Virus record (IMG/VR): IMGVR_UViG_3300032896_000431
Span: 1-64,000 of that record
Strand: one strand, 5' to 3'
DNA: 64,000 nt
Origin: a virus
A program made the position numbers and the translations under genes. Below, piece after piece: positions 6,969-56,800 of the stretch. The notes under the pieces are model-generated. The model ran no database searches. It was not told the DNA's origin and saw only the letters and a program-made list of their open reading frames with translations. How positions within the stretch are numbered: position 1 is the stretch's first letter; every line of letters begins with the position of its first letter.

Positions 6969-7922
6969 CTATAATAAAAACTCTTCTCTGATAACTAACC
7001 CGTAGACGTCCCTGCCGCTGCGCGTATGACCCGATTTCACAAAGCCGAGGGTTTCAAGCCAGGCGCGTCTGCGCGGATCAGCAGCGGGCGCCAGGACCTC
7101 GACGCCCTGGCGAAGTAGTCCACACAGCCTCAAATGGCTAAACGCCGCGCGGCCAACAAATCCCAGGCTCGTGGTAACACCAGGTTTCAGCGCGACACTA
7201 ATTAGCAAAGCATAGGGTGCAGACCGAGGATCCTGCAATTCCCCATCAGCGAGGTTATATGCGACCACCTCACCATTCTTATATTTTGCAGCCACCTCCG
7301 CTGAAACTCCGAGGACAGCACAGATGCCTGAGGGTTCACCTTGCTGGCGACCGCTGACTTGAGGCGAGAACCGAAGCCACCGTCGATTCTCAACCGGTGG
7401 AGGTTTAAGCAGCATCAGCGACGTAGGCTGGAGCCGGTGCCACGTGAAGATGGCGTGGATTTGGTCAGCCGGGGTTGCATTCCCTCCGAGAAAACTCGGT
7501 CGACGATGCGACTGTATCAACTCCTGATGGAGGCGCGAGAACACTAGCCTATCCTCCGGCCGTTGAACGAGTTCATATTCGGACGACTCTAACGGCTGAA
7601 GCACCAAGTTGAGAACTTCGGCCATCGTCTTGGCCTTCAACGGACCTGCACCAGGCATCGAATGGGATGGGTCACTCGCACGGCGCGCCAGATAAATTTC
7701 GCCACCTAAGATCATCGTAAGCATAGCTAGCAAGGCGATTTTGAGAGATGATGACCAATCTGCAAGCCCGAGTTGGGTTCCGAATATTTCGAGAATCAGG
7801 GCGATGGCCGAACATATCAACTCCACGGTCAGTACAAGCCGATGATGCAGGGCGGCGAAGCCGCTAACTGCATAAAAGAACCTATCGACTGCGGCGATCA
7901 TTCTCATGCAGGTACCAACCAA
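6969..7922 (-). CDS. Two-TM membrane protein with C-terminal cytoplasmic domain
   Basis: This 317-residue protein has two predicted membrane helices near the N terminus, about residues 28-47 (LVLTVELICSAIALILEIF) and 58-80 (SLKIALLAMLTMILGG), and then about 235 soluble residues. The last 100 residues (GFVGRAAFSHLRLCGLL ... RRAWLETLGFVKSG ... DVYGLVI) have the look of a GNAT-like or related alpha/beta fold, but the acetyl-CoA signature is not clear. It is the last gene of the cassette A operon, 24 bases downstream of the cyclase-like gene. In Pycsar and CBASS systems a cyclase is paired with a TM effector of this size class, so an effector role is a reasonable inference. Base composition is lower in GC than the phage backbone. 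Confidence 0.75.
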   Translation of the reverse strand: MVGTCMRMIAAVDRFFYAVSGFAALHHRLVLTVELICSAIALILEIFGTQLGLADWSSSLKIALLAMLTMILGGEIYLARRASDPSHSMPGAGPLKAKTMAEVLNLVLQPLESSEYELVQRPEDRLVFSRLHQELIQSHRRPSFLGGNATPADQIHAIFTWHRLQPTSLMLLKPPPVENRRWLRFSPQVSGRQQGEPSGICAVLGVSAEVAAKYKNGEVVAYNLADGELQDPRSAPYALLISVALKPGVTTSLGFVGRAAFSHLRLCGLLRQGVEVLAPAADPRRRAWLETLGFVKSGHTRSGRDVYGLVIREEFLL

Positions 7923-7946
7923 CAGCGCCAGAGGTTCTTCAGTCGG

Positions 7947-9047
7947 CTAACGTCTCTGATTCGTACTAGTCGCCAACTCAGCCCATCTACTGAGCACAAA
8001 GTCACGTTGGGCTGCGTCTAATAATTGATGACCATACGTCCGCATCCCCGCCTCGACGACCTTTTGGCCAAGAAACTTCCGGATGACCTGATCAATCCAC
8101 CGAGGTGGGTCCTGTCTAGATGATAAGATACGGGACAAGATACTCAAATATACGGCCGCGATGCCTGGGACATCCCCGCACCGCCGCAGTCCATCCTTGA
8201 TGTGGATAGATCTAAATATCAGCGGAAAATCGACCCATCTTCCTGTATTATCATCAAAATTCAACCTCGAGAAGTCCGAAGACGACACGATCCCGATCAA
8301 AAGAGATACATATGACGAAGCTGCGCGCGGTGACAGCAACCGAGCCTTAAAAGCTTCTTGGAGCGCCAGATCGATATACGACTGCCCTTGTAAGCGCCGC
8401 TCCGGACCAAGACCCTCAGATCCATTTTCGCCATCTTCAGAATGATCAGGGTCTTGCGATGCCGAAACAGGCGCCCCAATTTCGTCGGCAGTATATCGAA
8501 CGTCCTTGTAAGGTTCTAGATGAGTGGTTGATGCCCTCCCTCCCCCTAGCGCTACGAAGTTCGACTCGACTAACAGCGGTGCAATGTCTGCCGGGACTCT
8601 TGGCTCCTGTTTGCGCGATATATAGATTCCGATCCCATGAAAATTCTGATGATCCTCATACACCTCAGCAGCGGCCCTACTGGAAAAAGAGAAGCCTTCA
8701 ATTCTGCGAATTCGTCCACCCCTTCCCACCCTATTGACCTGCAGCTCACCTGTAACTATGGCGCATTTGAAGTAATATGTATTCGCAAACATAGTGCTCC
8801 TTATCTTCTGAAGCCCCCGAAGCAACGCTGAGAGATCCTCGACATTGAAGACGGCACTGTCGCTCAGCACATAACACTGACTGCTATCTCCGAGTTCATT
8901 CGCCAAGGCAGATACCTGGTTTAAGAATAAACCAAGCGCATCCGCGAGCCTCTCGGGCGGAAGCAGTGCACGCTGACGAGTCCCTATCAGGTCAAGGAAT
9001 GCGACCCAGTTTGGCATGCCAACTCTCCCCTCACCCGGCGGCGACAA
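7947..9047 (-). CDS. Class III nucleotidyl-cyclase-like (palm fold) protein
   Basis: A 366-residue protein whose N-terminal half resembles the class III cyclase/palm fold: VAFLDLIGTR (first metal-binding Asp in the first strand), then CYVLSDSAVFNVED (second Asp in the hairpin) and YFKCAIVTGEL (the strand that in cyclases reads as G-x-x-x-G-E). Both presumed metal ligands are present, so it could be active. The C-terminal half (from about residue 190) is helical and unrecognised. It overlaps the 3' end of the upstream gene by 17 bases and lies 24 bases before the TM gene, so the three genes form one operon. Start may be ATG 9047 or the internal Met11 (MPNWVAF). Assignment rests on motif spacing only; it might instead be an inactive cyclase-homology protein. 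Confidence 0.65.
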   Translation of the reverse strand: MSPPGEGRVGMPNWVAFLDLIGTRQRALLPPERLADALGLFLNQVSALANELGDSSQCYVLSDSAVFNVEDLSALLRGLQKIRSTMFANTYYFKCAIVTGELQVNRVGRGGRIRRIEGFSFSSRAAAEVYEDHQNFHGIGIYISRKQEPRVPADIAPLLVESNFVALGGGRASTTHLEPYKDVRYTADEIGAPVSASQDPDHSEDGENGSEGLGPERRLQGQSYIDLALQEAFKARLLSPRAASSYVSLLIGIVSSSDFSRLNFDDNTGRWVDFPLIFRSIHIKDGLRRCGDVPGIAAVYLSILSRILSSRQDPPRWIDQVIRKFLGQKVVEAGMRTYGHQLLDAAQRDFVLSRWAELATSTNQRR

Positions 9048-10089
9048 AGAATCGAACCGGCGTAATAAAGTTGTCCGTGACTAGCCGCCGAAAATTCGGG
9101 GGCAGCTTGTCAGGCGGAAAGATCGCGACGGCACGCGAGGTCCATCGTCGCCGCTGAAATAGTGCCATGACCTGCCTGACGTCCCTCGATAACCTAGGCA
9201 CCTCCCTTGGACGAATGAGGACGTAACTGCCCGGCGATGGATGCTTCGTCAATTCCTCCGCAATGGCCTTTGCGCTCAGCTGCCCCCCTATAAGTCTCCG
9301 CGATCGTAGGTTACGGATCGCGGCCTCTCTCGTCGGAAGAAAGGACGAGAGGCTCGTGGTGACGAATCGATCCCACATGCGAATTGCTTCGCCAAATGGA
9401 TCGCGTCGAGCCTCTGCTCGCCCGAGCGACGTGAAGCTAACATATCTTGAATCTGGCAGCAGATCACCGTAGGGCGTTCTGCAGACGCGAGTTCCACTGA
9501 GCGCCGTGCCGTAGTCAGCAAGGGCGAACTCGACCTTGCGACGATAAAGCCCCTCGCGCGTCAATGCCTCGATCGCGGGTCTAAGCACGTCCATCATGCA
9601 CTCAGAATTAGCAATGCTCATCTCCAAAATCAGATCGAGAACCAAGTCCGAGACCCTACGCTCAAATGTGCCGCTGCGCGCACCTCGCAAGCCGATGGAC
9701 GCTTGTATCCAGGTGTCTCCCTCGGGACGCCACCCCGTGTCGTCCTTGGCAGAGTACGCGACCACGAAACCCAGCTGGTTCGGGTCGGGTAATGGCTCGA
9801 GTGGGATGCGCGGCTCGGTAGCATAAATCGATACCCGAGCGACCCCAGCCGGCAGCTGTCGGAGATAATAGGCGGGGGTATCTAGCGCCGGGTCATCCGG
9901 CACGATTACATTCCTCGTTTCGAGATGAAAGGAGTGAGGCTGAAGGCCAGTCCACAGCCGAATCCTCTCAAGCTCCTCTGCGAGATTGCGTCGGCAAAAG
10001 ACTACAACGTCGGCCAGCGGCGGAAGTTGGGGCTCCAAGCCCCGAACGAGCATCACGTAACGGTGGTTCGAGAGGTCGGGCGGCGCCAT
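9031..10089 (-). CDS. Unrecognised first gene of cassette A operon
   Basis: A 352-residue protein, soluble, with no signal peptide or membrane segment. It begins MAPPDLSNHRYVMLVRGLE. The C-terminal third contains YVLIRPREVPRLSRDVRQVM and RAVAIFPPDKLPPNF. GGGAGG lies upstream of ATG 10089. The centre (DTWIQASIGLRG ... LVLDLILEMSIANSECMMDVLRPAIEALTREGLYRRKVEFALADYG) is a mix of strands and helices. Tight coupling to the cyclase-like gene suggests that it is a sensor, regulator or second enzyme of the same system, but nothing in the sequence proves this. Confidence 0.7.
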   Translation of the reverse strand: MAPPDLSNHRYVMLVRGLEPQLPPLADVVVFCRRNLAEELERIRLWTGLQPHSFHLETRNVIVPDDPALDTPAYYLRQLPAGVARVSIYATEPRIPLEPLPDPNQLGFVVAYSAKDDTGWRPEGDTWIQASIGLRGARSGTFERRVSDLVLDLILEMSIANSECMMDVLRPAIEALTREGLYRRKVEFALADYGTALSGTRVCRTPYGDLLPDSRYVSFTSLGRAEARRDPFGEAIRMWDRFVTTSLSSFLPTREAAIRNLRSRRLIGGQLSAKAIAEELTKHPSPGSYVLIRPREVPRLSRDVRQVMALFQRRRWTSRAVAIFPPDKLPPNFRRLVTDNFITPVRFFVAAG

Positions 10090-15519: not shown

Positions 15520-16040
15520 GGACAGGGGAAGGCGAGCGGGGCAGTCGCGGCTGGCTGAACAAGGTTCGGGCGGTCGGTTACGCGCGCGGGCGCGGCGGGC
15601 AGCGGGCGCAGCAGCAGCTTGCGGGCGCGGGATGTCCGGCGGTGACGGCCGGTCTGGCCGGACGTGCATGCGCAATATTGCTTCGTCGCCTCGACGGCGG
15701 AGCGAAGGAATGTTGCGCGCGGCATCCTGGCCGGCGGCAAATATGGTGCAGGGTTGCAAGGAACACCGTGCAACGCATTGACGGGGCGATGGTTTTGCCG
15801 GGTCGGCCCCTGCCCTATGCGGGCAGTGTCGGGCGGGGCGGGCGCGGCGGGCCGGGTTAGGCGGGGCCGGCCCCCGCCCCTGGACAGGGGGGGCAGGGGG
15901 TGGAGCGGCGGGCGCGGCCCCGCGGGCAACCGTCATCCGCGAACGTATTCAAAAATTCTGGTGAAAAAATTGCGCGCTGAAATGTTTGGGGCGGATTGAA
16001 GGGGAGACTGTTCTCCCTGGTCGGGTGTCGAGCGGTAACA
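15520..16040. other. Very GC-rich gap between early and late operons
   Basis: About 520 bp between the leftward clamp promoter and the terminase gene. Several overlapping reading frames cross it on both strands, but their products are Ala/Arg/Pro/Gly-rich with no start sites or motifs. The last 100 bp are AT-richer (around 15945-15985) and probably contain the late promoter; no clear consensus was seen. Confidence 0.4.
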
Positions 16041-17573
16041 GTGTCCGGAGTGGAAAACCCTGCTGTCGCGGATGGGCCGGCACCTGGCGCGCTGGCGGCG
16101 GCGTTCCTGCGGCTGGACGCGGATCGACGCGCGGCACTGCTGGAGGAGCTGACCGGCGAGGAGCTGGTGCAGCTTGAGGCCGACGTCGACGAGCAGGTGC
16201 GGTCGAGCCTGGAAGACTGGTGCCGGTTGGCGCTGGCGGATGAGGGCCAGGCTCCCGCGCTGCACCACCGGTTATTGCTGCGGGAGTTGGAAGACATCGC
16301 CGCCGGCGAGAACGACCGGCTGATGGTGCAGATGCCGCCGGGGACGGCGAAGTCACGCTACGTGTCGGACCTGTTCCCACCGTGGTTCATGGCGCGGCAG
16401 CGGGGCACCTCGGTGATCGGGGCGTCGCACACCTCGGGGCTGGCGCAGTACTTCTCGCGCAAGGTGCTGGGGCGGATCCGGCAGCATGGCGCGACGCTGC
16501 GCATGCACCTGCGCTCGGAGGGCGTGGAAAGCTGGGAGACGACGAACGGCTCGGAATACCGGGCGGCGGGCGTGGGCGCGGCTATCGCGGGCCGGCGCGC
16601 CGACCTGGTGCTGATCGACGATCCAGTGAAGTCGCGCGAGGAAGCGGACAACCTCGACATCAGGAACCGGACCTGGGAGTGGTACCAGGGCGACGTGATC
16701 GGGCGGCTGAAGCCGACGGGCCGGATCGTGCTGATCATGACGCGGTGGCACGAGGACGATCTGGCGGGCCGGTTGCTGGACCTGCAGCCCGGGCGGTGGC
16801 GGACGCTGGCGCTGCCGGCGCTGGCCGAGGCGGATGATCCGCTGGGCCGCGAGCCCGGGACGCCGCTGTGGCCGGAGTACTGGCCGCTGGAAAAGTGGCT
16901 GGCGAAGCAGGCCGAGGCCGGCGGGCCGAACTCGCGGGAGTGGAACTCGCAGTATCAGCAGCGGCCGGCATCGGCCACCGGTGCACTGTTCCAGGTGACG
17001 AAGCTGGCGGTGCATGACGACGTGCCGTCTCTGGTGCGGCGGGTGCGGGCGTGGGACCTGGCGGCGACCGAGGCCGGCGCGACGGTGGGGAAGAAGCGCG
17101 GGGCGGACCCGGACTGGACTGTGGGTGTGCTGCTGGGGAAGACGACGGCGGGCCGGTTCGTGGTGCTGGACGTGGCGCGGGTGCGGGGCGGCCCGGAGGT
17201 TGTCGAGCGGACCATCGTGGAGACGGCGCGGGCGGACGGGGCTGCGGTGACGATCGGGCTGCCGCAGGACCCGGGGCAGGCCGGGAAGTGGCAGGGATCG
17301 TATCTGACGGCGCAGTTGGCTGGGTATGTGGTGCAGACCTCGCTGGAAAGCGGGTCGAAGACGACGCGGGCTATGCCAGTGTCGTCGCAGTGCAACGGCG
17401 GGAACCTAGGCATCATGCGGGCGCCGTGGAACGCCGCGTTTGTCGATGAACTGCGGAATTTCCCGGCGGGGCGGTTCGACGATCAGGTGGATGCGCTGTC
17501 GCGGGGCTTCGCGATGCTGCTGCTGACGGCGAAGCCGGCGCACGGCAGGCATCTGGGCTTCATGGCACGGTGA
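16041..17573 (+). CDS. Phage terminase large subunit
   Basis: This 510-residue protein is the packaging ATPase/nuclease. Walker A is MPPGTAKS (residues 98-105), Walker B is DLVLIDDP, and a coupling-type motif IVLIMTRWHEDDL follows. The C-terminal RNase H-like nuclease domain begins at VRAWDLAATE, continues with PDWTVGVLLG and FVVLDVARVRGG, and ends with FDDQVDALSRG. This is the Terminase_6-type organisation. I chose GTG 16041 (VSGVENPAV); the frame is open to a TTG at 15996. It opens the rightward late operon, and its stop overlaps the next gene as GTGA. In this phage the large subunit precedes the small-terminase-like gene, the reverse of the usual order. Confidence 0.95.
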   Translation: MSGVENPAVADGPAPGALAAAFLRLDADRRAALLEELTGEELVQLEADVDEQVRSSLEDWCRLALADEGQAPALHHRLLLRELEDIAAGENDRLMVQMPPGTAKSRYVSDLFPPWFMARQRGTSVIGASHTSGLAQYFSRKVLGRIRQHGATLRMHLRSEGVESWETTNGSEYRAAGVGAAIAGRRADLVLIDDPVKSREEADNLDIRNRTWEWYQGDVIGRLKPTGRIVLIMTRWHEDDLAGRLLDLQPGRWRTLALPALAEADDPLGREPGTPLWPEYWPLEKWLAKQAEAGGPNSREWNSQYQQRPASATGALFQVTKLAVHDDVPSLVRRVRAWDLAATEAGATVGKKRGADPDWTVGVLLGKTTAGRFVVLDVARVRGGPEVVERTIVETARADGAAVTIGLPQDPGQAGKWQGSYLTAQLAGYVVQTSLESGSKTTRAMPVSSQCNGGNLGIMRAPWNAAFVDELRNFPAGRFDDQVDALSRGFAMLLLTAKPAHGRHLGFMAR

Positions 17574-18127
17574 CGGTGCAGGGTGAGATGGAACAGGCGA
17601 CCGGGCACCGGAACAAGCGAACCGAGCGGCAGGCGGACCTGCGGGCCGCGGCGAAGCTCCAGATCCTGGAAACCCTCGCCAAGGGGCTGTCGCCGGTGGC
17701 GGCGGCGAAGGCGGCTGGCGTCGCCTACTCGACCATCTGGACCTGGAAACGCGACGACGCGGCGTTCTCGGCGGCCTGGGACGAAGCCTTCGAGCAAGGG
17801 ACGGACGTGCTGGAAGACATCGCGCTGAAGCGCGCCACGGTGGGCAATCAGCGGCCGGTGTACCAGGGCGGCAAGCAGGTGGGCACGGTGCAGGAGTTCT
17901 CCGACCACCTGCTGTTGGCGACATTGGCGCGGCGGCGGGAGGCCTGGCGGCAGAGCAAGACCAAGGTGGAGCTGACCGGCAAGGATGGCGGGCCAGTGCA
18001 GGTGCAGCATGTCCGAGCGCGGATCGCGGAGAAGCTGGCGGCGCTGGCCGGCGGGCTGGGCTATGACGATGCGCAGCAGGCGGAGGCGTCGGCTGCGGCG
18101 CCAGCGAAGGACGGACCGCGCGGTTGA
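17570..18127 (+). CDS. Terminase small-subunit-like HTH protein
   Basis: A 185-residue protein with a helix-turn-helix at about residues 35-65: ETLAKGLSPVAAAKAAGVAY followed by STIWTWKRDDAAF. Such homeodomain-like HTH proteins of this length next to a large terminase are usually small terminase subunits that recognise the packaging site. The C-terminal part has EFSDHLLLATLARRRE, common in this group. It starts at GTG 17570, overlapping the stop of the large subunit. The end lies 30 bp before the left end of cassette B. Confidence 0.78.
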   Translation: MTVQGEMEQATGHRNKRTERQADLRAAAKLQILETLAKGLSPVAAAKAAGVAYSTIWTWKRDDAAFSAAWDEAFEQGTDVLEDIALKRATVGNQRPVYQGGKQVGTVQEFSDHLLLATLARRREAWRQSKTKVELTGKDGGPVQVQHVRARIAEKLAALAGGLGYDDAQQAEASAAAPAKDGPRG

Positions 18128-18156: not shown

Positions 18157-18191
18157 GAGAGCGGATCGGCTCGAACTCTAGCTTTCGGTAG
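18157..18191 (+). repeat. Left terminal inverted repeat of cassette B (degraded)
   Basis: Best conserved parts are GGATCGGC, GAAC and GCTTTCGG, in register with the other cassette ends. Confidence 0.5.
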
Positions 18192-18330
18192 TTCTCTGTG
18201 AGCCTGCCTCCGGGTCGGGATGCATCAAACCAGAGATTCGGCCTAAGACAGGGCTGGTCGCGAGCCGGTTGGCGCCTTTGGGGTGGTTAGGCCCCTATAG
18301 TCGACCTCCACCGGACGATACTGTGCGTAC

Positions 18331-21300
18331 ATGCTGGAGCCGTGCCGCTTGGCATCCTATCTGAGACGAATGAGCAGACGATCCGACAACCAGAACAGAG
18401 CATCCGACGACGACCAGAACGACGAACAATCGGTCCCGGCCGCACCGCGCCAGGTCGAAACCGACGCCGATATGATCGACGCACTGTCCGACTTCATCGT
18501 GCGCAACCCTAACGTGCTAGGCGGTGGTGATATCCTAACAATCACGGGCGGCAGGCCGGTGGCGCGGGCGGGCATGCTGGCGGCGATCCTCGCTGGCTTG
18601 GCACTCGAAGGAGGGGCGCGGGCAATAAGGGGATATCTGATCGTCATTCCCCCTGCCGCTGATGCGGTGGCGGGACGTGAGCGTGCATGGGAAGGGTTCA
18701 CATTCGCATTCGCGCGTCTGGCGGGCCGATCCCTGACCCCGGCGGAGGAACATTGGCTTCTGAGCCGATTTGAGGTGCGGGCCGCCCCGGATGGCCGCGC
18801 CGCATCGATACTCGCGCTGATCGGCGACCAGCGCGAGCGAACGGCAATTATTGTCACTGAAGCGGCCGATTATCGGGATGACGCAATTGCGCCGTTCGTG
18901 CGCGAGGGCGCGGAGACGCCACTAGTTGCAGAAGATGTGTGGGTTCCTCAGCTCCACAGCCTGGCGCAGGCCGCTGTAGCGGTCGCAAGCGAGAAGAGCT
19001 TGTATGTCGCACTTGACGCGGATGAGCTCAGCCCAATTCGCCCGCAGCTTGAACAGTTGCTGCGGTCGGTCGATGGCTGCGGGGTCATGGGCGCCGCGGA
19101 CGACAACCGACCTGAGACCATCCTGGCAAGACATGTGGATACATGGGATCGGTGGATTGCCGAGGGGCGCGTTGGCCGAGTCTTGCGCGATGTCAACGAG
19201 CTTCCGACGACACTGAATTCCGAAAAGCCATTTCTGCGGGTCCAGCTTCTGCATAAGGCGGGGTTGCGCTTGGAAGCGCTCGCAGCGATTCGCAGCGAAT
19301 TCCTGTCGAGAGGCCATCTCGATCCGTCGTCGCGCGTGCGGCTCGCCCGCATCGCGGGCGATGCAGGCGCATCACGGCTCGCCCGGGAACTTCTTGAGCC
19401 ATGTATCACCCATCTCGACAGTCGGGAGGAACTCGAAAGCGCGCTTCGCACGGCCGAGGCCTCGGGATCTAACGAACTCCAACAAAAGCTCGCGAATCGA
19501 CTGGAAACACGCTTTCCCGGCGCTGAGGGTGTGCAACGTCATCATCGGCGGTTGCTGTTGCGCGACCGTGATTACGCCAGCGTCGCTGATCTGCTGCGTC
19601 CCGCAGACGCCAAACGCGCTACATTCTATGACGCGCTCGCTACCGCTCTGTCCGGTAGCGAGATCCCGGACTATATGACGCTCATTGGCTCTGCGCAGGA
19701 TAACAATCAGGCTGAGGCGTTTCGCCTCGCGAGCGTCGAGGACGCATTGTCACACTGCCTCACCGTGCATGCTTTCGAACTGGCGCTCGCCAGGCCGGCG
19801 AGTTCGGCACTCACCGAGCGCTGGCAGCGGCTCCTGCTTGAGGCCCTGGAACGCTGCTTCCTCGACTGCGGACCCAGCGGGAGTCCCCCGGTCGAGATGT
19901 CGCGCATTGAGGAAGGGCTGCGCGCGCTTGTGGCTAGCCTCGCCTGCGATCCGCTAAATGCTGCTCTGCGCTTCGGCCTAGTCGACCTCCTTCGGCCCAA
20001 CGTGTCGGGAACAACTGGGCTCGCGCTAATCGCAAAATTGGTGTTAGACGAAGCTGCGAACCCTATCACCCCCAGCAAAGGCTTCAAGTTCGGTTCGGCC
20101 GGAATGGATTGGCTGCTCAATAAGAAGCCATTTCTCAACAGAGCTTTGGACTGGTTGAAGAGCGAAGAGCCAATATTGATCGGCAAGCTCGCGCTTCCGG
20201 CGGAGCTACTGACCGAGGATGCCGACGCGATACTCTCTGCGATCGCATCCTATCTAGAACGGGTTCCGCTTGCAGACGCAAGCGACATTGAGTCCCTGCA
20301 GCTCTGGCTGACATTGGCTGCCGCTGTCGCTCCGCACAGTTCCGACCCGGACGTCGACCTTCGCTTGTACCGCCTGGCGGCTGGCAAGCTTGCGAGCTAT
20401 GGCTTCCCACAGCATGCGCGCGACTTGGTTGAGGTGGCGGTACAGGCGGGCACTGCAACGCCGCGGCGACGTCGATTGGCGTGGTTTTCCGTTGCGGATG
20501 TCTACCACCGAGTGCGTGACTATCTCGCCGGACTTGTCGCGCTGGCCTGCGCCTTCGCGGCAGATGACCACGCGGATGAGGAAGAGATCTGGCAGGAGAT
20601 CTATGCGCTCGCCCGCTTCATGCGCGATGCGGGCCTGTCCGACGTCGCGTTTGCGACGATCGCAAAGGGCCGTGATGTGCTTGCGCGAATGTCACTTTTG
20701 AAACCGTATGGCCACAGACTTGACCTGCTCGAATTGCAAGTGAGGCAGACGCGCCTTGATGAGCACGATGCCAAGGGATTGGCGGAGCTCCTATCGGACG
20801 CAATTCGCGTCGGAAAGGAAGTATTGAAGCGTCGTGAGCAGACCGCGCCGGCAGGGATCACTCTGGGCCAGCTTATCCGTGCGGCGCGTACCGCAGCTAT
20901 CCCTATTCCCGATGACGCTGAAACCGTGTTCCGGAAGCTCAACAAATGGGCGGGCGGCAATCTGGCGGCGATGATAGTCGCAGCCTCGTCATCGGCGCCA
21001 ACGGCCGCACAAGTGGCGGAGCTCGTGGCGAGCATGCCTCGTGCTCGCTATGCCGAGGATGTTGGCTTTGACACAAGCGTCGTGGCGAGACTCGCGCGTC
21101 GCGCTCTTACAGACAACGCCTTGCTATTAAACTCAGTGGAAACGTCGTTCACGCTCGAAGTGCTCTCTGATTGGGGCGCAGCGCTGCCCGGTTGGGACGA
21201 AGCTGCTGCGCCGCCCTCGGCCCTTCGAAAGGAAGAGCCGGCGGCGATTGCGAGATCGATCTCCAGCTCGGGACCGGCCATCCTCCAGTTGGGGTTGGAT

Positions 21301-22239
21301 GCCAACGGCAGCTTGATCCGCGCGATTTCGGCCAGCGGTCGGAATGGCGCGGCAATCCGCGAGGCGTCAGACATCTTCTCTCAAGAGGCATTCCACGACT
21401 GGATGCTCGAATTTCCGAGGCGCTATGGCTACGACGACAGCCCGAACCTGTTCTACACAACGACTGATCGTCTGCGCTTGAGCGCTGTACCAGAAGGCCC
21501 GACGATTGTGGTTGCCGCAACTGAGCTACAGACCTTCCCGCCAAATCTGCTGTTCGCCAACGGCGAATTCCTAGGGCGCAGACAGCCTGTCGCTGCGGCA
21601 CCATCCCTTGCATGGCTGAGTGGTGCGCGTGATCGGAGCCAGGCCGGAGACGGGCGGATGGTCGCATGGATTTCCACGGCCGAAGGCGAGGATGGTCGAG
21701 CAACGCTGTCGCTGCTAGCGCAGCGGCTTGAGGCGCCTTTTGCAGACTTTGGCTTCTTGTTAGACACCAGTCCAGTGATACCGCGAGGTTTTGCCGACGC
21801 GACCATGGCCGTGATCACCGCGCATGGGCGCGTCCATCCCGAAGGCCGCTATTTTCAAGTCGTGTCAGATGAGGGTACGTTAAGGGTATCCGCTGCAGAT
21901 CTTGCTGCTGCCGTCCGAAATGTTGGAGTCGTTGTCCTATTTGTGTGCAGCGGCGGGCGGTCTGACAAGCACCCCGGAGCGAACACGACGCTCGGGCTCG
22001 CAAAGCAAATACTCGACCGTGGTTGCAGTGCCGTGATCGCATCGCCATGGCCGCTCGACTCCCAAGTGCCACCGCACTGGCTTCCTGCCTTTCTCGCCGA
22101 GTGGGCGAACGGAGCGACGCTGATCGAGGCAAATTTCTCTGCAAATCGCGTGGTCGACGCGCGGTTTGCGCTCGACCCAGCAAGAGGCCTCGCAATGACC
22201 GTCTATGGCGACCCGCTCCTGAAAAGGCTGCGAAGTTAG
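18331..22239 (+). CDS. Large CHAT-family (caspase-like) protease with helical repeat region
   Basis: A 1302-residue protein. The C-terminal 250 residues form a CHAT domain of the caspase clan: AVITAHGRVHPEGRYFQVVS supplies the catalytic histidine (His1165), and VVVLFVCSGGRSDKHPG the catalytic cysteine (Cys1206). The canonical tail, ILDRGCSAVIASPWPLDS ... WANGATLIEANFSANR ... MTVYGDPLLKRL, is complete. The middle (about 250-900) is helical, with TPR-like amphipathic pairs, and the N-terminal 200 residues look like an alpha/beta domain. CHAT proteases act in bacterial immunity (TPR-CHAT, gasdermin-linked and NLR-type systems), cleaving a partner upon a trigger. No gasdermin-like or other partner lies in the cassette. 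The start may instead be ATG 18370 (MSRRSDNQN), which has a weak GAG upstream. Confidence 0.88.
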   Translation: MLEPCRLASYLRRMSRRSDNQNRASDDDQNDEQSVPAAPRQVETDADMIDALSDFIVRNPNVLGGGDILTITGGRPVARAGMLAAILAGLALEGGARAIRGYLIVIPPAADAVAGRERAWEGFTFAFARLAGRSLTPAEEHWLLSRFEVRAAPDGRAASILALIGDQRERTAIIVTEAADYRDDAIAPFVREGAETPLVAEDVWVPQLHSLAQAAVAVASEKSLYVALDADELSPIRPQLEQLLRSVDGCGVMGAADDNRPETILARHVDTWDRWIAEGRVGRVLRDVNELPTTLNSEKPFLRVQLLHKAGLRLEALAAIRSEFLSRGHLDPSSRVRLARIAGDAGASRLARELLEPCITHLDSREELESALRTAEASGSNELQQKLANRLETRFPGAEGVQRHHRRLLLRDRDYASVADLLRPADAKRATFYDALATALSGSEIPDYMTLIGSAQDNNQAEAFRLASVEDALSHCLTVHAFELALARPASSALTERWQRLLLEALERCFLDCGPSGSPPVEMSRIEEGLRALVASLACDPLNAALRFGLVDLLRPNVSGTTGLALIAKLVLDEAANPITPSKGFKFGSAGMDWLLNKKPFLNRALDWLKSEEPILIGKLALPAELLTEDADAILSAIASYLERVPLADASDIESLQLWLTLAAAVAPHSSDPDVDLRLYRLAAGKLASYGFPQHARDLVEVAVQAGTATPRRRRLAWFSVADVYHRVRDYLAGLVALACAFAADDHADEEEIWQEIYALARFMRDAGLSDVAFATIAKGRDVLARMSLLKPYGHRLDLLELQVRQTRLDEHDAKGLAELLSDAIRVGKEVLKRREQTAPAGITLGQLIRAARTAAIPIPDDAETVFRKLNKWAGGNLAAMIVAASSSAPTAAQVAELVASMPRARYAEDVGFDTSVVARLARRALTDNALLLNSVETSFTLEVLSDWGAALPGWDEAAAPPSALRKEEPAAIARSISSSGPAILQLGLDANGSLIRAISASGRNGAAIREASDIFSQEAFHDWMLEFPRRYGYDDSPNLFYTTTDRLRLSAVPEGPTIVVAATELQTFPPNLLFANGEFLGRRQPVAAAPSLAWLSGARDRSQAGDGRMVAWISTAEGEDGRATLSLLAQRLEAPFADFGFLLDTSPVIPRGFADATMAVITAHGRVHPEGRYFQVVSDEGTLRVSAADLAAAVRNVGVVVLFVCSGGRSDKHPGANTTLGLAKQILDRGCSAVIASPWPLDSQVPPHWLPAFLAEWANGATLIEANFSANRVVDARFALDPARGLAMTVYGDPLLKRLRS

Positions 22240-22403
22240 GTGCACGATTCCGACAAGGATTAGTCGTACGCTGGGGGAACTGCAACCTTCGCAAGCAACG
22301 TTCTAGGACTGCTTCGACTAGCTTTGGCACGATGCAGTCTGCGTCAGGCAGTGCGGTACGCCCGCTCCTGAGGCGGCATCACGGCCAGCCCTATAACCGA
22401 GTT

Positions 22404-22438
22404 ACATCGAAAGCGAAGATTCACGCTGATTCACTGAC
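22404..22438 (-). repeat. Right terminal inverted repeat of cassette B
   Basis: On the minus strand it reads GTCAGTGAATCAGCGTGAAT, CTTC, GCTTTCGATGT. It shares the central TCAGCGTGAATCT with cassette A's left end exactly. It ends 13 bases before the next phage gene. Confidence 0.68.
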
Positions 22439-23809: not shown

Positions 23810-25348
23810 ATGTTCCAGACGCTCGCCGACCGCATCCTGCGGGATGCCGATTACCCGCCGCGCACGCGGGAACTCGACATCCTGCGGCGGGTGCTGGAGG
23901 GGCGGCTGTATGACGTGCTGCCGCGGGAATTCCACCAAGAACGCACCTCGGGCGGCGAGTATATCCCGCTGCGGGATCGCCGCCCGTCGGTGCGCTACAA
24001 CCTCTGCCGCCTCGTGGTCGAGGATTCGGTCGCGCTGCTGTTCTCGGAGGGGCATTTCCCTACCCTGGAATGCAACGACGCCACCGTGCGCGGCGCCCTG
24101 CTGGCGCTGGCGAAGGATGCCCGCCTGGCGCGGGTGATGACGGACGCCGCCATCTCCGGTTCCGTCGGCTCGACCTGCATCCTGATGCGGGTGCTGCGCG
24201 GCCGGGTGTTCTTCGACGTGCTGCGCACCGAGTTCCTGACTCCGGTGTGGCAGCGCGAGGCGCCCGACACGCTGGCGATGGTGACCGAGCGCTACAAGGT
24301 CCATCGCACCCAACTGGAAGAGAGCGGCTTCTCCCCCGACCCGCAGTGGCAATGGTTCTGGTTCCAGCGGCGGTGGGATAGCCAGCGCGAGATCTGGTAC
24401 CTGCCGTGGCCCGTCGGCAAAGACGACGCCGGGCCGGTCGAGGACCCAGCGAACACGGTGACGCACGCGCTCGGCTTCGTGCCGATGATATGGATCAGGA
24501 ACCTGCCTGGCCCATCGGCCTCCGGCTCGCCGTTCGACGGGGCCTGCACGTTCCGCTCCGCTATCGAATCGCAGATCGAGATCGACTATCAGCTCTCCCA
24601 GGCCGGCCGCGGCCTGAAATACTCATCGGACCCGACCCTGCTCATCAAGGAGCCGGCGTTCGCGGAGCAACGGGAGTTCGTGCGGTCGCCGGCGGATGCG
24701 CTGGTGGTGTCGCTGGGAGGCGACGCGAAGCTGCTGGAAATCGGCGGCACGGCCGCGACCGTGGTGCTGGACTACTGCCGGCATCTGCGCGAGCTGGCGC
24801 TGGAGACGATGCACGGCAACCGCGCCAATGCGGACAAGCTGTCGGCGGCGCAGTCCGGGCGGGCGCTGGAACTGATGCACCAGGCGCTGATCTGGCTCGC
24901 CGACCATCTGCGGCAAAGCTACGGCGAGGACGGCCTGCTGCCGCTCATCCGAATGGTGATGCGGATATCGCGGGCGATGCCGTTGGTGCTGGCGGATGGC
25001 ACCAGGCTGCCGGCGATCCCGGAGAACACGACGATCTCGCTGCGCTGGCCGCCGTGGTTCCCCCCAACCGGCGAGGACATGGTACAGCAGGCGAACGGAC
25101 TGGTGACGCTGCGCGTCGGCGGCCTGATCTCGCGGGAGACCGGGGTCAAGCTGGTCGGCGAGACGCTGGACATCGAGGACGTGCCGGCGGAGCTGGCGCG
25201 GATCGCCGCCGACGAACAGGCGGTGATGGACGGCACGCAACTCCCGCCGACCGGCAGGATGCAGCAGAGCCCGGCCAATGCGCCGGGGCAGACCGGGCCT
25301 GGCCCGAACGGCAATCAAGGCAAGGGCGGCGACACGCCGCCGGTTTGA
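23810..25348 (+). CDS. Phage portal protein
   Basis: A 512-residue protein of the SPP1 gp6-like portal group. Recognisable parts are YIPLRDRRPSVRYNLCRLVVEDSV near residue 45, the wing-region sequence FDVLRTEFLTPVW, the stem segment CTFRSAIESQIEIDYQLSQAGRG, and the long helix LRELALETMHGNRANADKLSAAQSGRA. It forms the dodecameric DNA channel at the capsid vertex. The C terminus is Gly/Pro-rich. It begins ten bases after the lipoprotein stop and is followed by the scaffold gene 13 bases later. Confidence 0.9.
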   Translation: MFQTLADRILRDADYPPRTRELDILRRVLEGRLYDVLPREFHQERTSGGEYIPLRDRRPSVRYNLCRLVVEDSVALLFSEGHFPTLECNDATVRGALLALAKDARLARVMTDAAISGSVGSTCILMRVLRGRVFFDVLRTEFLTPVWQREAPDTLAMVTERYKVHRTQLEESGFSPDPQWQWFWFQRRWDSQREIWYLPWPVGKDDAGPVEDPANTVTHALGFVPMIWIRNLPGPSASGSPFDGACTFRSAIESQIEIDYQLSQAGRGLKYSSDPTLLIKEPAFAEQREFVRSPADALVVSLGGDAKLLEIGGTAATVVLDYCRHLRELALETMHGNRANADKLSAAQSGRALELMHQALIWLADHLRQSYGEDGLLPLIRMVMRISRAMPLVLADGTRLPAIPENTTISLRWPPWFPPTGEDMVQQANGLVTLRVGGLISRETGVKLVGETLDIEDVPAELARIAADEQAVMDGTQLPPTGRMQQSPANAPGQTGPGPNGNQGKGGDTPPV

Positions 25349-26003: not shown

Positions 26004-27120
26004 TCGGTCTGCTTAGGGTATTGACCGATTGCGTCTGCGATTCTCCGGCTCCCAGTTTCTCGCAAATCCGGCGCGAAACTCATCGTCCCTACCCGCTCAC
26101 TTTTGTGGAAACTGTCCGTAGGGATTTTTAGCCGGGTCATACCGCCAAGAGCCGAGATCGAAGTCACCTAGCTCTATTTGCTCAATCTTACCGTGATGCA
26201 TAAATGCGCGGCGGACAATAGCGAAGGCTTCGCCACAACGTCTCTGATTTAGGCATCGGCTAACGATCGTGGCTGTCATATCTGCTATCCGGAGTTCTGG
26301 GCGTTGATGCGATGGGGCAAAAGAGAGGTTCTTTGTAAAGAGCTCGTTGAGATCAAGCTTTCCATGTCGCGTGAACTTATCCAAGAACGGATGCCCCGTG
26401 CTTCTCCACTCGCTAGCAATCAGCATGGGGGCCTTTTGGGTGATATGATAAAGCTGATTGCGTAGAATCTCTTTCCAAAAAATTTCGTGACGTGGCGTAC
26501 GGACAAAATCACGGTCTATAATGAACTGGAGCTCTGTCAGCTCACTATCATAGCCGCCACTGATCGCATGCCCAACACAGTTGGTCAAAGACTTTACGAT
26601 GCAATGGCCAAGCAGAACGATCTTGAGAAAGACGTTGTCGTCCAAATTCTGAAACCAGTTTCCCATCTCTTCGTAGGTCCGAGCCACTGCCGGCCGTCCG
26701 AGAGCCTGGTATCCTTTGACGCCTTCCTGGATGCCAACGAGGGCGACGTGCCGGTGCTTCGCAATGATGGCCCGTGGATGCTGAGATTGCCGAAGCGCGA
26801 CCGGCGTGATGCGGGGAATGGTGGGGATTTGGTAGATACGTGCGGCGAAGTCCCGCAGATGGGAATCAGTCAACGCGGCTCCTTTGAACTCACCTTTATG
26901 GTCCTTAAGGCGTCGTGGAAGGGTCCTTTCCCAATCGAGGAACTGAATGCACTTCTGTTCAGACAATTTGCCATGTTGTCGAAGAGACACTGCGACGAAG
27001 ATGTTTGTGCGGTCAGCGCCAAATCCGAACGAACCTGATTCGTCTATCGCGATGAGCATCTGCATAACCCCGTGATGCGCGGCCCCCGCCTGCCTCCGCT
27101 GAAATACCCGGTATTGGCCG
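26001..27120. mobile_element. Probable cargo insert C (DUF3800) with uncertain ends
   Basis: A leftward, lower-GC gene splits the scaffold and major capsid genes, which are normally adjacent. The left flank, TAGTCGGTCTG ... TTGACC (26001-26026), resembles the left ends of cassettes D and E but is gapped. No matching right end was found. A direct repeat GGTATTG(A/G)CCG occurs at 26017-26027 and 27110-27120. Confidence 0.35.
26097..27065 (-). CDS. DUF3800 family protein
   Basis: A 322-residue protein. It opens with MLIAIDESGSFGFG, the acidic DESG signature of DUF3800, an RNase H-like fold family. Further marks are FIIDRDFV in the middle and LRIADMTATIVSRCL near the C terminus, which corresponds to the conserved IAD-LA segment. 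The acidic residues needed for metal binding seem present. DUF3800 genes are common as accessory cargo in prophages and defence islands, and a nuclease role is suspected but not shown. It is alone and transcribed against the late operon, so it needs its own promoter. Start is ATG 27065 or the in-frame ATG 27059. Confidence 0.85.
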   Translation of the reverse strand: MQMLIAIDESGSFGFGADRTNIFVAVSLRQHGKLSEQKCIQFLDWERTLPRRLKDHKGEFKGAALTDSHLRDFAARIYQIPTIPRITPVALRQSQHPRAIIAKHRHVALVGIQEGVKGYQALGRPAVARTYEEMGNWFQNLDDNVFLKIVLLGHCIVKSLTNCVGHAISGGYDSELTELQFIIDRDFVRTPRHEIFWKEILRNQLYHITQKAPMLIASEWRSTGHPFLDKFTRHGKLDLNELFTKNLSFAPSHQRPELRIADMTATIVSRCLNQRRCGEAFAIVRRAFMHHGKIEQIELGDFDLGSWRYDPAKNPYGQFPQK

Positions 27121-29639: not shown

Positions 29640-30575
29640 GTGCGGCATCTGAGACCAGCGCTACTCACCTTAATTCAGGCGGTCAGCGTACCGATCATTC
29701 TGGAGGGGTTGTGGGCAGCCTACTGTTGGGGTCAAGGCTGGCCGACGTACTTCCGTTGGTTGGTGATCGGCTGCGAGTTCTTGATAACTCTGCTTGTTAT
29801 AATTGGCCTACGCGTATGGGCGGCGGTCTGGCTTGCAAGTTTCATACATGCTGCAAATGCGATTCGCTGGTCTGATTTGGGATCGTGGGTAGCAAAACAG
29901 AAGGTTGTGAGCTGGGGATCAGGTATTATACTCGTTCCCTTATATATCGTCCATTTTTTGAAGAAGGCCGTTTCGCATTGCGACGCCTCGAACATAAACT
30001 GGGCTTCTCACATAGCCTGTCAGTTTGACAGAGATGTCATGGCGTTTGATTTTCTAGGCCACCACTACGAAGCCACTGACATACTTACAATAGAGCTGCT
30101 CGGTCTTCTTATCGGCTTCGTCGCTCTGTACCTCTACAGAGCTTGGGCGCCTCCACCTCTGAAGCAGCCCCCAAAGCTTGGACTCGCGGATGCATTGCGA
30201 GAGTGGCCACACGGGATCAAGGGGTACCAGCTAGCGAACACTCTCTCGCAGCAAGTAGATGAACAAGCGGCGAAGCCCGAATGGAGCAACCACGACTGGT
30301 CCAGCGCTCGGGAGGCAGTTAGTCAGCTCGACGAGGTGTCGATGCTCGATAACGATCCAGGTGCAGCGCTTCAGGCTGGACGGGTAATCGAACTATTTCC
30401 GAAGATTCCGGGATTTCAAGAGCGCATGACACGTCTGTTTTTCGATGCCCTACACCCTGCAAGGCGCTGGGTGTTGGCGGGTATGCTTGCCGTCAGCGAG
30501 GTCTTGACCGCGTTCCCAATCCTGATACGCATCATTACCACCTTTTTCGAACGGCTTGGAGGAACACCGCAATGA
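29640..30575 (+). CDS. Multi-TM membrane protein of cassette D
   Basis: A 311-residue integral membrane protein. Predicted membrane helices lie at about residues 5-25, 42-66, 90-110 and 148-166, with a further hydrophobic segment near the C terminus (WVLAGMLAVSEVLTAFPILI). Between them is a soluble region of about 100 residues (PPPLKQPPKLGLADALREW ... SAREAVSQLDEVSMLDNDPG). Translation starts at GTG 29640, preceded by GGGAGG. It overlaps the next reading frame as ATGA, so a two-gene unit is likely. I do not recognise the family. By analogy with other cargo it may be a membrane effector, but that is a guess. Confidence 0.72.
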   Translation: MRHLRPALLTLIQAVSVPIILEGLWAAYCWGQGWPTYFRWLVIGCEFLITLLVIIGLRVWAAVWLASFIHAANAIRWSDLGSWVAKQKVVSWGSGIILVPLYIVHFLKKAVSHCDASNINWASHIACQFDRDVMAFDFLGHHYEATDILTIELLGLLIGFVALYLYRAWAPPPLKQPPKLGLADALREWPHGIKGYQLANTLSQQVDEQAAKPEWSNHDWSSAREAVSQLDEVSMLDNDPGAALQAGRVIELFPKIPGFQERMTRLFFDALHPARRWVLAGMLAVSEVLTAFPILIRIITTFFERLGGTPQ

Positions 30576-36116: not shown

Positions 36117-36320
36117 CAGCGGGCCCTGATCCATTCGTTGCCTCAGAACGATGCCCATAGTAAAATCGAACAAAACCTCTTGCCCACGTTGAGTGAATCG
36201 TCGACGACTCCTATGTTACCCTTTCTTGGCTCTATGGCGGCACCGGAAAACGCGGCCTTCTTGCGGCCGCTTACGCGAATGTTCGCATACTCTCTTGCGC
36301 GACAACAGGCAGATCTTAAC

Positions 36321-37385
36321 ATGACCAAAAGGGATAGGTGGACCGAGGACGACGCCAGGAACCTACCGAGTGAAGAGCCGGACGCGTTTGAGCGCAAATC
36401 CGGAAAGCTTTTCGACAGCGGCCAGGACCTTTTCTTGAATGCGCTAGCCAAGGCGCTTTCGGCTTTTGCCAACTCAGGTGGAGGGTCAATCATAATTGGC
36501 GTACGCGACGACGGTACCTTCGATGGCCTCACTCCTTATGTCGGGCGCGCGACCATACGTGATTGGATTGAGATGAAGGTACCTACGCTGTTGGAATATC
36601 CTTTGTCGGATTTTCGCGTTCATACGGTAGAGAGAGGCGATTCTTCAGGAGTGCCTGCTGGCCGTGTAGTCGTCGTCATCGATGTGGGGGACAGTGCCGT
36701 CGCACCCCATCAAAGCAAGAGGGATAAAATCTACTATCGACGCGAGGGCGGAAGGTCGGTGCCTGCTCCTCATTTCTATTTAGAACTGTTGAGACAACGG
36801 CTAACAAACCCTAGGCTGGAGATAGAGCTAAAGGAGATTAAACCGTTCCATGCGTACGAGATTGCGGATCAAGAAGGAATACTAGTTAAGTTGAAGCTCG
36901 GCTTCTTGGTGCAGAACATCGGTCGGGTCTCGGCGAATAACTGGCAAATAAATATTCGGACCCTGTCTTGGGATAGCGCGCTAGATTTCAAAAGAGCAGA
37001 AGACATCATGTTTTCTGGCTTCCCAGAACCCAAGGTTCGCAAGTCAGTAGAGACCACCATCCCGTTTGGAAGCCGGGCGATTTTGCCTGGCTGCAGCTAC
37101 CTTGAGCACAGAGAGGTAGGGCTCCACCTGCGCCCGACGTTGCGGACTTTTGACGAGCTCGTAAGGGAGTTGGACGCTTTGATACTGCCGATCTCCATCG
37201 GCTGCCAAGTTGCGACTGAGACGTCACCAGGTGAGCTTGTCTCGGTCAAATTGAGTCCAGCCTATGACGCTGCGACAATCAAGGCTGCAATTGCCCAATC
37301 CTGTCCTGAATTTCTTGCGGCCACGCCGTCACAGGACGGTGTTGCACCTAACTATCCCGCTAAATCTGGTGAATCCGAAGCATGA
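36321..37385 (+). CDS. AlbA_2 (Schlafen-type) ATP-binding domain protein
   Basis: A 354-residue protein. Near the N terminus it has PDAFERKSGKLFDSGQDLF, then ALSAFANSGGGSIIIGVRDDGTFDGL, the standard AlbA_2/Schlafen core with the GG-x-(I/L)-x-IGV element, and HQSKRDKIYYRREGG as the conserved last strand. The C-terminal half (about 175-354) is a beta-rich domain of unknown type. AlbA_2 proteins occur as phage-defence components and transcription regulators. I chose ATG 36321; the frame is open back to a TTG at 36138, but the family N terminus fits the later start. A weak TTGCGG-N19-CATACT promoter lies upstream. Confidence 0.8.
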   Translation: MTKRDRWTEDDARNLPSEEPDAFERKSGKLFDSGQDLFLNALAKALSAFANSGGGSIIIGVRDDGTFDGLTPYVGRATIRDWIEMKVPTLLEYPLSDFRVHTVERGDSSGVPAGRVVVVIDVGDSAVAPHQSKRDKIYYRREGGRSVPAPHFYLELLRQRLTNPRLEIELKEIKPFHAYEIADQEGILVKLKLGFLVQNIGRVSANNWQINIRTLSWDSALDFKRAEDIMFSGFPEPKVRKSVETTIPFGSRAILPGCSYLEHREVGLHLRPTLRTFDELVRELDALILPISIGCQVATETSPGELVSVKLSPAYDAATIKAAIAQSCPEFLAATPSQDGVAPNYPAKSGESEA

Positions 37386-53867: not shown

Positions 53868-56800
53868 ATGGGTCTCTGGAAAATCTTCGCCGCCATCGGC
53901 ATTGCCCCGAATGGGCGGAATATATGCGTAACCGCCTCGGTGAACGAGACATGGGATCTCGATCTGGAGTATTCGCCGGTGCTCCAGGGCGCATTGTGGC
54001 CTGCTGATAATGCGGCCTGGGAGAAGTGGCAGACAGACTCGGTGGAGTCTGTTTCGCGGGTGGTGTATTTCAAGCAGGGCGTTAGCGATCCGTGCTTGGT
54101 GGTCGATACGGTACCGTCTAATACAACCGTCATATTCGATACGAAATTTTTTGGCCAGACCCAGACCCAGATCACGCTTAAAGGGGTTCTGCCAGCCGTG
54201 ATTGTGGCTCCCGGTTCTACGCCGGACTACATGCCCCCGCTTGAGCTGAAAATCACTAGATTTGGCGAGTCGTCCGGCCCTCCCTTCAGCGACGACGGAT
54301 ACCCAATTTTCGCCGACGGCCTTCTCGGTTCGCAACAAATTCCACCCAATACGAAATTGCCGGATCTGGTCCACTATCCTGGGCTATACGAGTCGGGGAA
54401 TCAGCCCGGACCGGCGGTCGCGGCCGCGCTCGGCCTCACCGTGCATAATTCGTTGCCGTTCAACGACTGGCGCCGGCCGATATCGCTGCGTTTCGTCGCG
54501 ACGGACGACGGTCAGGGCGTGCGCCTGGTCATGTCGAGATACTTCGAGCTGGACACCCAGTCCCAAATCCTGTCAGCTCCCTACTATTGCGAATTCCAAA
54601 TATCTGTCGTCCCTACAACAGATGCAGACGAGATGCCTCGTACCTCGGTGTTCCCGGCGGACCGAGTCCCCACCGTTTTTACCCAGGAACAACCAGCTGA
54701 TATTCTCAGTAAGGCCCGCTCCGGCACCGTCACTGAGTGGCCTACTTGGGACCTCGTGCTGGCAGGCATTTCTTATCGCGCCATCCAGGATTTTTGGAAC
54801 ACGGTGGTGGCGCGCCCATACCATCGCTCCATCCGTGTGGCGGCACAGAGCCGGCCGAATTCGGTCGTTCCATTCTGGCGCGACTCAGAGCCGCTCAACC
54901 CGATCCCGCCGCCGGCGCTCACGGAACCGGTCTACGCGCTGCGATTCAAAATCGCCGGCTGGCGGGACGTCAGCAAGCCGATCACGAAAGACAACCTTTT
55001 CGTGTGTGGTCTGGAGCTGACGCCCGAGACAGTCAATGCAGACCCATTCCCGAAAATCGAAACCCAACTGGAATTCGCCGGCTTGGTAGATCATGGCGGA
55101 AATCCAGTCACGGTACAGATCGATCCGGGAAAACCAACCGGCAAGAAGTATTTCATTACCCTTGCACTATATAAGCCAAAGACAATCCCGGAAAACGGAG
55201 CAATCAACGCAGCCTGGAACTTTAGCAAAGCCGAGTCGACGACGACGCATCAATCCGTGCGGATCGGCGCGATGGATCTCACCTTCCTGAACAGTGGTGC
55301 CGGCCTTGACTATCCCGGTGGTGCTCTGGCGCTGACCGTTCAGGTCGATTTCGAAAGACAGACGATTGGTGGCGAACCGTTCAGCATCCCGCGGCCTCGG
55401 GTGATTTCGCCAAGCAATCTGCCGGTCCTGGATGCGCGTCCCGGCGGCCAGGACACGCCGGTCGGCGCCGAATATCTCCCATCCGAGCGCAGCGCTCAGT
55501 ACGCGCGGCCTCCGGCGCTCGTGTTCGCACCGTATGCCACGCCAATCCCGCAGCCGCTTTTTCTGGAAGTTGCCGAAGATACCGGCGATCCAGAACACGG
55601 CGACGCGCAATCGCCGAAGCTCACGTTGCGTCTGAGGCAGCCGGAAGGGGCGCCATCGGACTTTGGCCAGGTCATCGTGCTCGATCCAGCTCCATTCACC
55701 GTGGCCGCCGTGCAGGCAAAACTGCTGCGGCAGACCGCATCGAACCTGCTTGGCACCTGGAGCAATGGCAGCGTCGATGGTTCGTCCTGGCAACTCGCGC
55801 TCGATCCAACCGGCTTCGCCCTGACCCTGCCGCCGCAGGCGATCGCAGAGACAATGTCGAAATGCGCGACCTCCGATGATCTTCAGCCCGGACAATTTTC
55901 GGACCTGCGCTTATCGCCGGTCGCCAGCGCGACCCTGGACGCGGCGCCGTTCCCTCAGCAGTTCGTCGAGCCATACTGGAATCTCCGCCGCCGGCTCGGC
56001 TTTCCTGGGCAGCGCGCGCCCGGTTCGGGGCTGAGAAGCTTGCGCTTCGAGCTGCTCTATGGTCTGCAAATCGACGTCAACGCGCCATTGATGTCCCTCG
56101 CGGAATTGCAATCGCGGATCGGTACGCCGCCTGGGCCACTTGACGATCCGCTGCCCTGGGCCAACGTGTCGCATGCACAGCAAATGCAGTTGCCGAAGGC
56201 CAACGAGGAATGGGCGGCGAAATACGCCGAACTCGACCGCCGGCTTGGCTGGCTGGAAATCTGGAGCCCGGCTCAACCGGCTGAATTCCAACTCAGTTCA
56301 AACGTGAATTTTACCCAGCGTGGCGCAGCGCTGAGCCAGATGCGCTCGCCGTTCGACAAGCAGCACGACGCCTCGAAAATCGCCGGCGGATGGATGTGGG
56401 GCTTCGAGTCCGCCAACATCCTGGCGGCAGTCCAGCGTTCGGCGAGCTCGACCGGCGGTGAACTGGCTAGACCGGCGTTGTCCGCGCTTGGCGGATGGGG
56501 TTGGCAAAAAGCCTGGTTTGACAACAACCGCACGGCGATCATCGCGGACGTGGCGATGGGGCGGACCGATTTCTACAGTCTGGAGCGGATCGGACGCATC
56601 GCGCCGTTCTGGAATACCGCCAAACACGTTATCGTCTATGAACGCACGGTGCGTCAGCATCGCGCTGAATTCAGCCGTACCGGGCTGGAGCGTCGACCGG
56701 TGCTACGCAAGGTCGCTGAGTACGTCGAGATCCTGCAGCCCGTGCGGCAACTGATCAACGACGGGACTGACAATCCGCTGGCCATGAGATTTTTCGAATC

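Follow-up and report, generated by a model that had tools for sequence, protein, structure and literature searches.

A solitary TPR-CHAT protease gene inserted among phage late genes: a candidate one-gene anti-phage system

Most known immune CHAT proteases either depend on a partner (Cas7-11) for activation or have their substrate encoded nearby. Those paired with gasdermins are presumed activators of a death response, and Borvo is a single-gene system. Borvo (BovA) has been listed as a CHAT-protease defence system (PMC10952713). In Csx29, the TPR-CHAT protein of Craspase from type III-E CRISPR-Cas (dyads H585/C627 and H615/C658), the dyad is repositioned via the TPR region once the target binds (PMC9729208, PMC10028731). 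A precedent for defence genes in phage late operons is Tab of phage JBD26, an 83-residue tail-assembly inhibitor encoded as a defence moron between terminase genes (PMC10884400). Here we describe a gene for a predicted CHAT protease in the IMG/VR virus record IMGVR_UViG_3300032896_000431, of which positions 1 to 64,000 were analysed; this stretch, the window, covers nearly all of the 65,156-base record. The gene is an accessory insertion in a contractile-tailed phage and belongs to a family spread over several bacterial phyla. Its product is probably a one-gene anti-phage protease acting by abortive infection or superinfection exclusion, as judged from structure prediction, comparison of relatives and their genomic surroundings.

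The ORF (open reading frame) runs from 18331 to 22239 on the plus strand, is free of internal stops and encodes 1302 residues, the frame used for residue numbering throughout; homologue N-termini and a codon-based caller agree on the ATG at 18370 as the preferred start, giving 1289 residues. CHAT (PF12770) matches residues 1164-1267 (E=1.3e-9; 38.3 bits, cut-off 24) and is the sole Pfam family above cut-off. The initial annotation had named His1165 and Cys1206 as the catalytic dyad; indeed, both residues, within AHG and CSGGR.D, are kept in 49/49 aligned homologues, or 47/47 when one duplicate and one short row are removed. An AlphaFold2 model of residues 103-1302 with 42 homologues (predicted local distance difference test, pLDDT, 92.3; predicted template modelling score, pTM, 0.90) places an alpha/beta domain, a long helical solenoid and a single C-terminal caspase-like domain in that order. 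The modelled catalytic domain has a six-strand core with His1165 on a strand and Cys1206 directly after a strand, and in residues 14-410, modelled separately (pLDDT 91.5), residues ~45-265 form a six-strand alpha/beta domain. The parts of the gene are as follows.

18370..22239, plus strand: solitary TPR-CHAT protease gene, ORF opening at 18331 (homologue N-termini, codon caller, Pfam)
18463..19125, plus strand: N-terminal alpha/beta domain, residues ~45-265, putatively sensory or regulatory (AlphaFold model)
19126..21270, plus strand: alpha-helical (TPR-like) solenoid, residues ~266-980 (AlphaFold2 model)
20311..20670, plus strand: conserved core within the solenoid, residues ~661-780, QxARDLxE ... 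RxRxxWxxADVYxR ... RD (homologue alignment)
21271..22236, plus strand: predicted CHAT (separase/caspase-like) protease domain, residues ~981-1302 (Pfam, model, Foldseek)
21823..21825, plus strand: codon of the predicted catalytic His1165, invariant in the alignment
21946..21948, plus strand: codon of the predicted catalytic Cys1206, invariant in the alignment

Foldseek comparison with the PDB returned human separase as the top match (E=8.7e-14); other high-ranking structures were Csx29/TPR-CHAT (1.7e-9), the separases of yeast and worm, and the anti-sigma factor DdvA. Whole-chain template modelling (TM) scores are low (~0.3) because the solenoids bend differently, which indicates a common architecture and not close kinship. 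PDB sequence searches, both single-sequence and profile, gave marginal or chance matches only, so that it is the fold comparison that connects the protein with separase and Craspase; a search of a viral structure library returned generic repeats only. The N-terminal domain has weak Foldseek matches to the RecA-fold ATPases RadA, F1 and DnaC (E 6e-3 to 2e-2). An active ATPase was considered for this domain and rejected, as there is no GK[ST] motif and the Walker A lysine is missing across the aligned homologues. The catalytic half of CHAT is the most conserved part (47% mean pairwise identity), followed by the solenoid core 661-780 (39%); the N-terminal domain and one stretch of the solenoid are the least conserved (22%). 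Such a distribution would fit a divergent sensor attached to an effector that is conserved. By every feature checked (profile, dyad, caspase-like sheet), the window protein is a predicted CHAT protease. The earlier description of an intact, solitary CHAT protease with a large non-catalytic N-terminal part is therefore borne out by the ORF, the Pfam match and the model, with a caspase-like core whose absence from the predicted structure would have refuted it. Its account of some 1000 helical and sensor-like residues holds for the solenoid, which is helical from ~266, and has to be amended for residues ~45-265, which are alpha/beta.

The window phage is contractile-tailed, as PHROG and Pfam matches identify a large terminase, portal, scaffold, major head protein, tail sheath, tape measure and baseplate wedge. 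Three core genes flank the insertion.

15996..17573, plus strand: large terminase (PHROG 38, E=9.5e-90)
17570..18127, plus strand: small terminase-like gene (Sf6_terminase, E=1.4e-5, slightly under the Pfam cut-off)
23810..25348, plus strand: portal (PHROG 145, E=1e-12)

The CHAT gene had been placed directly between terminase and portal; it does lie between the small terminase and the portal, but three ORFs, of 62 residues, 206-219 residues and 127 residues (lipoprotein-like), separate it from the latter. The distance from large terminase to portal is 7, 359, 443 and 1,245 bp in most of the related phages that have both genes, against 6.2 kb in the window phage, and in the closest related phage (L094) the interval holds 3.7 kb of other genes; the CHAT gene is absent from this interval in the related phages. 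Its G+C content is 0.616 against 0.70, and at third codon positions (GC3) 0.66 against about 0.88 in the flanking genes, and a codon model trained on core genes of the window phage fails to recognise it. Spacers of 242 bp upstream and about 210 bp downstream set it apart. Because the site is empty in related phages, GC3 and codon use are foreign and gaps lie on both sides, the picture is that of an inserted accessory gene, or moron, and the same features make co-expression with packaging, proposed initially from the position, less likely.

A second phage lineage carries the gene elsewhere. L068, a clear contractile phage by PHROG, has a CHAT homologue between tail tube and tape measure, and L063, a prophage of the same type in a Pseudomonas genome, has one at the matching place. 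The two proteins are 70% identical with omega 0.13, a value like that of the tape measure gene, indicating that the CHAT gene was kept and selected as this lineage diverged. For the window gene, non-synonymous divergence from its relatives (0.22-0.37 per site) is far under the near-saturated synonymous divergence. The gene is thus under purifying selection and is not decaying, which had been raised as a possible objection. In the tree, the window protein groups with full support among Rhodobacteraceae/Roseobacteraceae copies, one of them on a plasmid, and L068/L063 lie distant from it among gamma- and betaproteobacterial copies; the two phage lineages acquired the gene independently. L068 also bears a second foreign-looking gene beside its CHAT gene, on the opposite strand (8433-9200, minus strand), for which no match was found in L063 and which we take to be DUF4062-like.

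An alignment query found relatives at 56 bacterial loci, a lower bound as these were located through two short peptide patterns. They are mostly full-length, about 25-67% identical, and hosted by Pseudomonadota, Desulfobacterota/Deferrisomatales and Myxococcota. A protein query found relatives in 23 plasmid records, 21 of them at >=80% coverage and 19 of the 23 conjugative. Sister branches of the tree mix classes and phyla (Desulfoprunum with Thiocapsa), indicating frequent transfer, and some copies have a visibly broken frame (L024, L028, L047, L056). The gene is rare in phages: the alignment query against IMG/VR gave three contigs, among which one besides the window record is a clear second phage contig, a plain protein query against IMG/VR gave no relatives, and tblastn against 50,697 phage records gave no match, so the CHAT gene is not a phage hallmark gene. 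E. coli genomes gave no DNA-level match to the Providencia homologue. These loci form a coherent family, apparently without a name so far, of solitary separase-like TPR-CHAT proteases of ~1,270 residues; a literature search made largely without subscription papers found no description of it.

The initial annotation saw no substrate gene in the cassette and placed the target elsewhere or among phage or host proteins, and the survey of homologue neighbourhoods that it called for agrees: clustering of 1,128 flanking ORFs of the relatives revealed no recurring partner or substrate gene. Recurrence is limited to integrase-like genes and one four-gene block in three loci. The commonest neighbour family, found in 8 loci at varied positions, probably consists of tyrosine integrases, and integrases are also the commonest neighbours by Pfam and PHROG scans. 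The block, of about 150, 680, 515 and 410 residues, stands beside the CHAT homologue in three unrelated hosts (L036, L038, L049) and is probably another defence operon. Among the annotated genes near plasmid copies are Z1/AIPR/PD-(D/E)XK with a cytosine methyltransferase, ABC-three-component/HNH, MazEF, YhaV/PrlF, an Abi protein and TIR genes. On chromosomes, genes directly beside the homologue give strong matches to specific PADLOC models: LmuA (Lamassu), SngA (Shango), MkoA/C (Mokosh), SAVED effectors, a DRT helicase, a type III restriction endonuclease and GajB. In total, 81 immediate neighbours matched 136 PADLOC models against 79 models, mostly generic ATPase-type, from 78 control genes of the same genomes lying at least ~55 kb away or on another contig. 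The relatives are located in defence islands, a placement to which the comparison with the control set lends moderate support.

These neighbourhoods favour a role in defence, as does the existence of defence morons in late operons, of which Tab is an example. Since hosts from several phyla carry the gene without a partner, the substrate would be encoded elsewhere or be a widely conserved protein, a phage protein or the protease itself. We infer protease activity, autoinhibition, trigger, substrate and defence outcome alike, and propose a model whereby the protease is held inactive until another phage infects the cell and a product or effect of that infection is sensed by the N-terminal alpha/beta domain and the solenoid. 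By analogy with Csx29 in Craspase, the signal would pass through the solenoid to CHAT and align His1165 with Cys1206, and the active protease would then cleave one or more host or phage proteins, stopping the infection. Several observations weigh against a defence moron. Tyrosine and serine recombinase searches of the 65-kb record found no integrase or resolvase, which leaves lysogeny unsupported. Neither a sigma-70-like promoter nor a flanking terminator was found beside the CHAT gene, in a scan whose consensus is unsuited to this host type. The window protein matches no PADLOC model, and the literature search, with few subscription papers, gave no experimentally tested family member. Finally, the excess of defence neighbours is moderate, coming from a crude family count in which the neighbour set is richer in residues and generic ATPase matches occur in both sets.

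Other functions would account for part of these data. As a late-operon protease, the protein could serve the lytic phase, cleaving host or competing-phage proteins in takeover, lysis or assembly, or being packaged and injected. Such a role would explain why the CHAT gene lies between late genes and on their strand in both phage lineages, and why it was retained for so long in L063/L068. We regard it as unlikely, given that related phages manage without the gene at the window site, that its composition and codon use differ from those of late genes, and that most relatives reside in genomes and plasmids, where the top-listed families of immediate neighbours include integrases and transposases but none of phage structural proteins. 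Copies are present on conjugative plasmids, close to repABC/parAB or toxin-antitoxin genes, and the gene is single and mobile; this would also suit a self-contained conditional toxin that stabilises its plasmid or phage or excludes competing plasmids, not phages. No antitoxin-like partner recurs, however, and the large, conserved sensor-like architecture fits conditional activation better, making addiction or inter-element exclusion marginally less probable again. The rarity of the gene in phages would be expected if a phage had picked up a host-regulatory or structural protein by chance and no role in the phage were selected, but an intact frame of 1.3 thousand residues, the low non-synonymous divergence and the constraint in the second lineage render this very improbable.

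The preferred reading, a phage-borne anti-phage protease, has a bolder form that we advance tentatively and consider rather doubtful as a whole: a widespread new one-gene immune system in which a separase-like protease with a built-in sensor (a RecA-like domain lacking the P-loop, plus the solenoid) would recognise phage infection without a partner gene and cleave a conserved bacterial protein, carried by phages to exclude rivals. An always-solitary, phylum-crossing family with a preserved active site must bear its own sensor and act on a target present in all hosts. The identity of the substrate would reveal what a bacterial separase-like protease cuts to halt phage, and independent insertion in two phage lineages offers a natural test of phage-against-phage warfare.

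Several accessory genes are apparently carried as cargo in the late region of the window phage. Its late operon is broken by three further genes of low GC3 (0.56-0.61), at 26487-27038, 29640-30575 and 36138-37385, sites at which a relative (L092) has its head and tail genes nearly back to back; two have no plasmid relatives and one has distant ones only. The third encodes a Schlafen/AlbA_2 protein, a relative of which (L020:3042-3383, Bradyrhizobium; 39% over 125 residues) lies <7 kb from a CHAT homologue. In the left arm, three low-GC3 genes in a row (6969-10089, minus strand), with no Pfam or PADLOC assignment, are probably another inserted cassette. The tail region ends in two very large ORFs, 53868-60140 (2090 residues) and 60150-64000 (>1282 residues), with no convincing family match.

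Set against the described systems, the window protein resembles Csx29 in placing a separase-like CHAT domain after a helical TPR-like region, with nearly the same His-Cys spacing (41 residues here). Unlike the solved Csx29 chains of 650-735 residues, it is about 1,270 residues long, and its N-terminus is an alpha/beta domain whereas that of Csx29 is a three-helix bundle. Membership in Craspase was rejected: no Cas7-11/gRAMP, CRISPR RNA or Csx30/31 lies beside the CHAT gene, whose neighbours are head and packaging genes, and none recurs beside the relatives. Eukaryotic separase, the best fold match, likewise joins a long helical solenoid to a C-terminal caspase-like protease, but identity in structural alignments is 10-14% and there is no securin or cohesin context. 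No gasdermin-like gene lies in the cassette or recurs as a neighbour in the loci examined, a gasdermin-specific profile not having been run. Borvo shares the CHAT protease as such. Membership there was also rejected, since the BovA profile (711 positions) has no match to the window protein and weak ones to 2 of the 31 homologues taken from the alignment for the PADLOC scan (best E=3.7e-6); those that could be located span ~90 of the 711 positions, in the catalytic part only. Like Tab, the CHAT gene is an accessory insert among late genes of the terminase region, although Tab is no protease. The solitary TPR-CHAT proteases are a family distinct from Borvo, Craspase and the gasdermin-linked CHATs.

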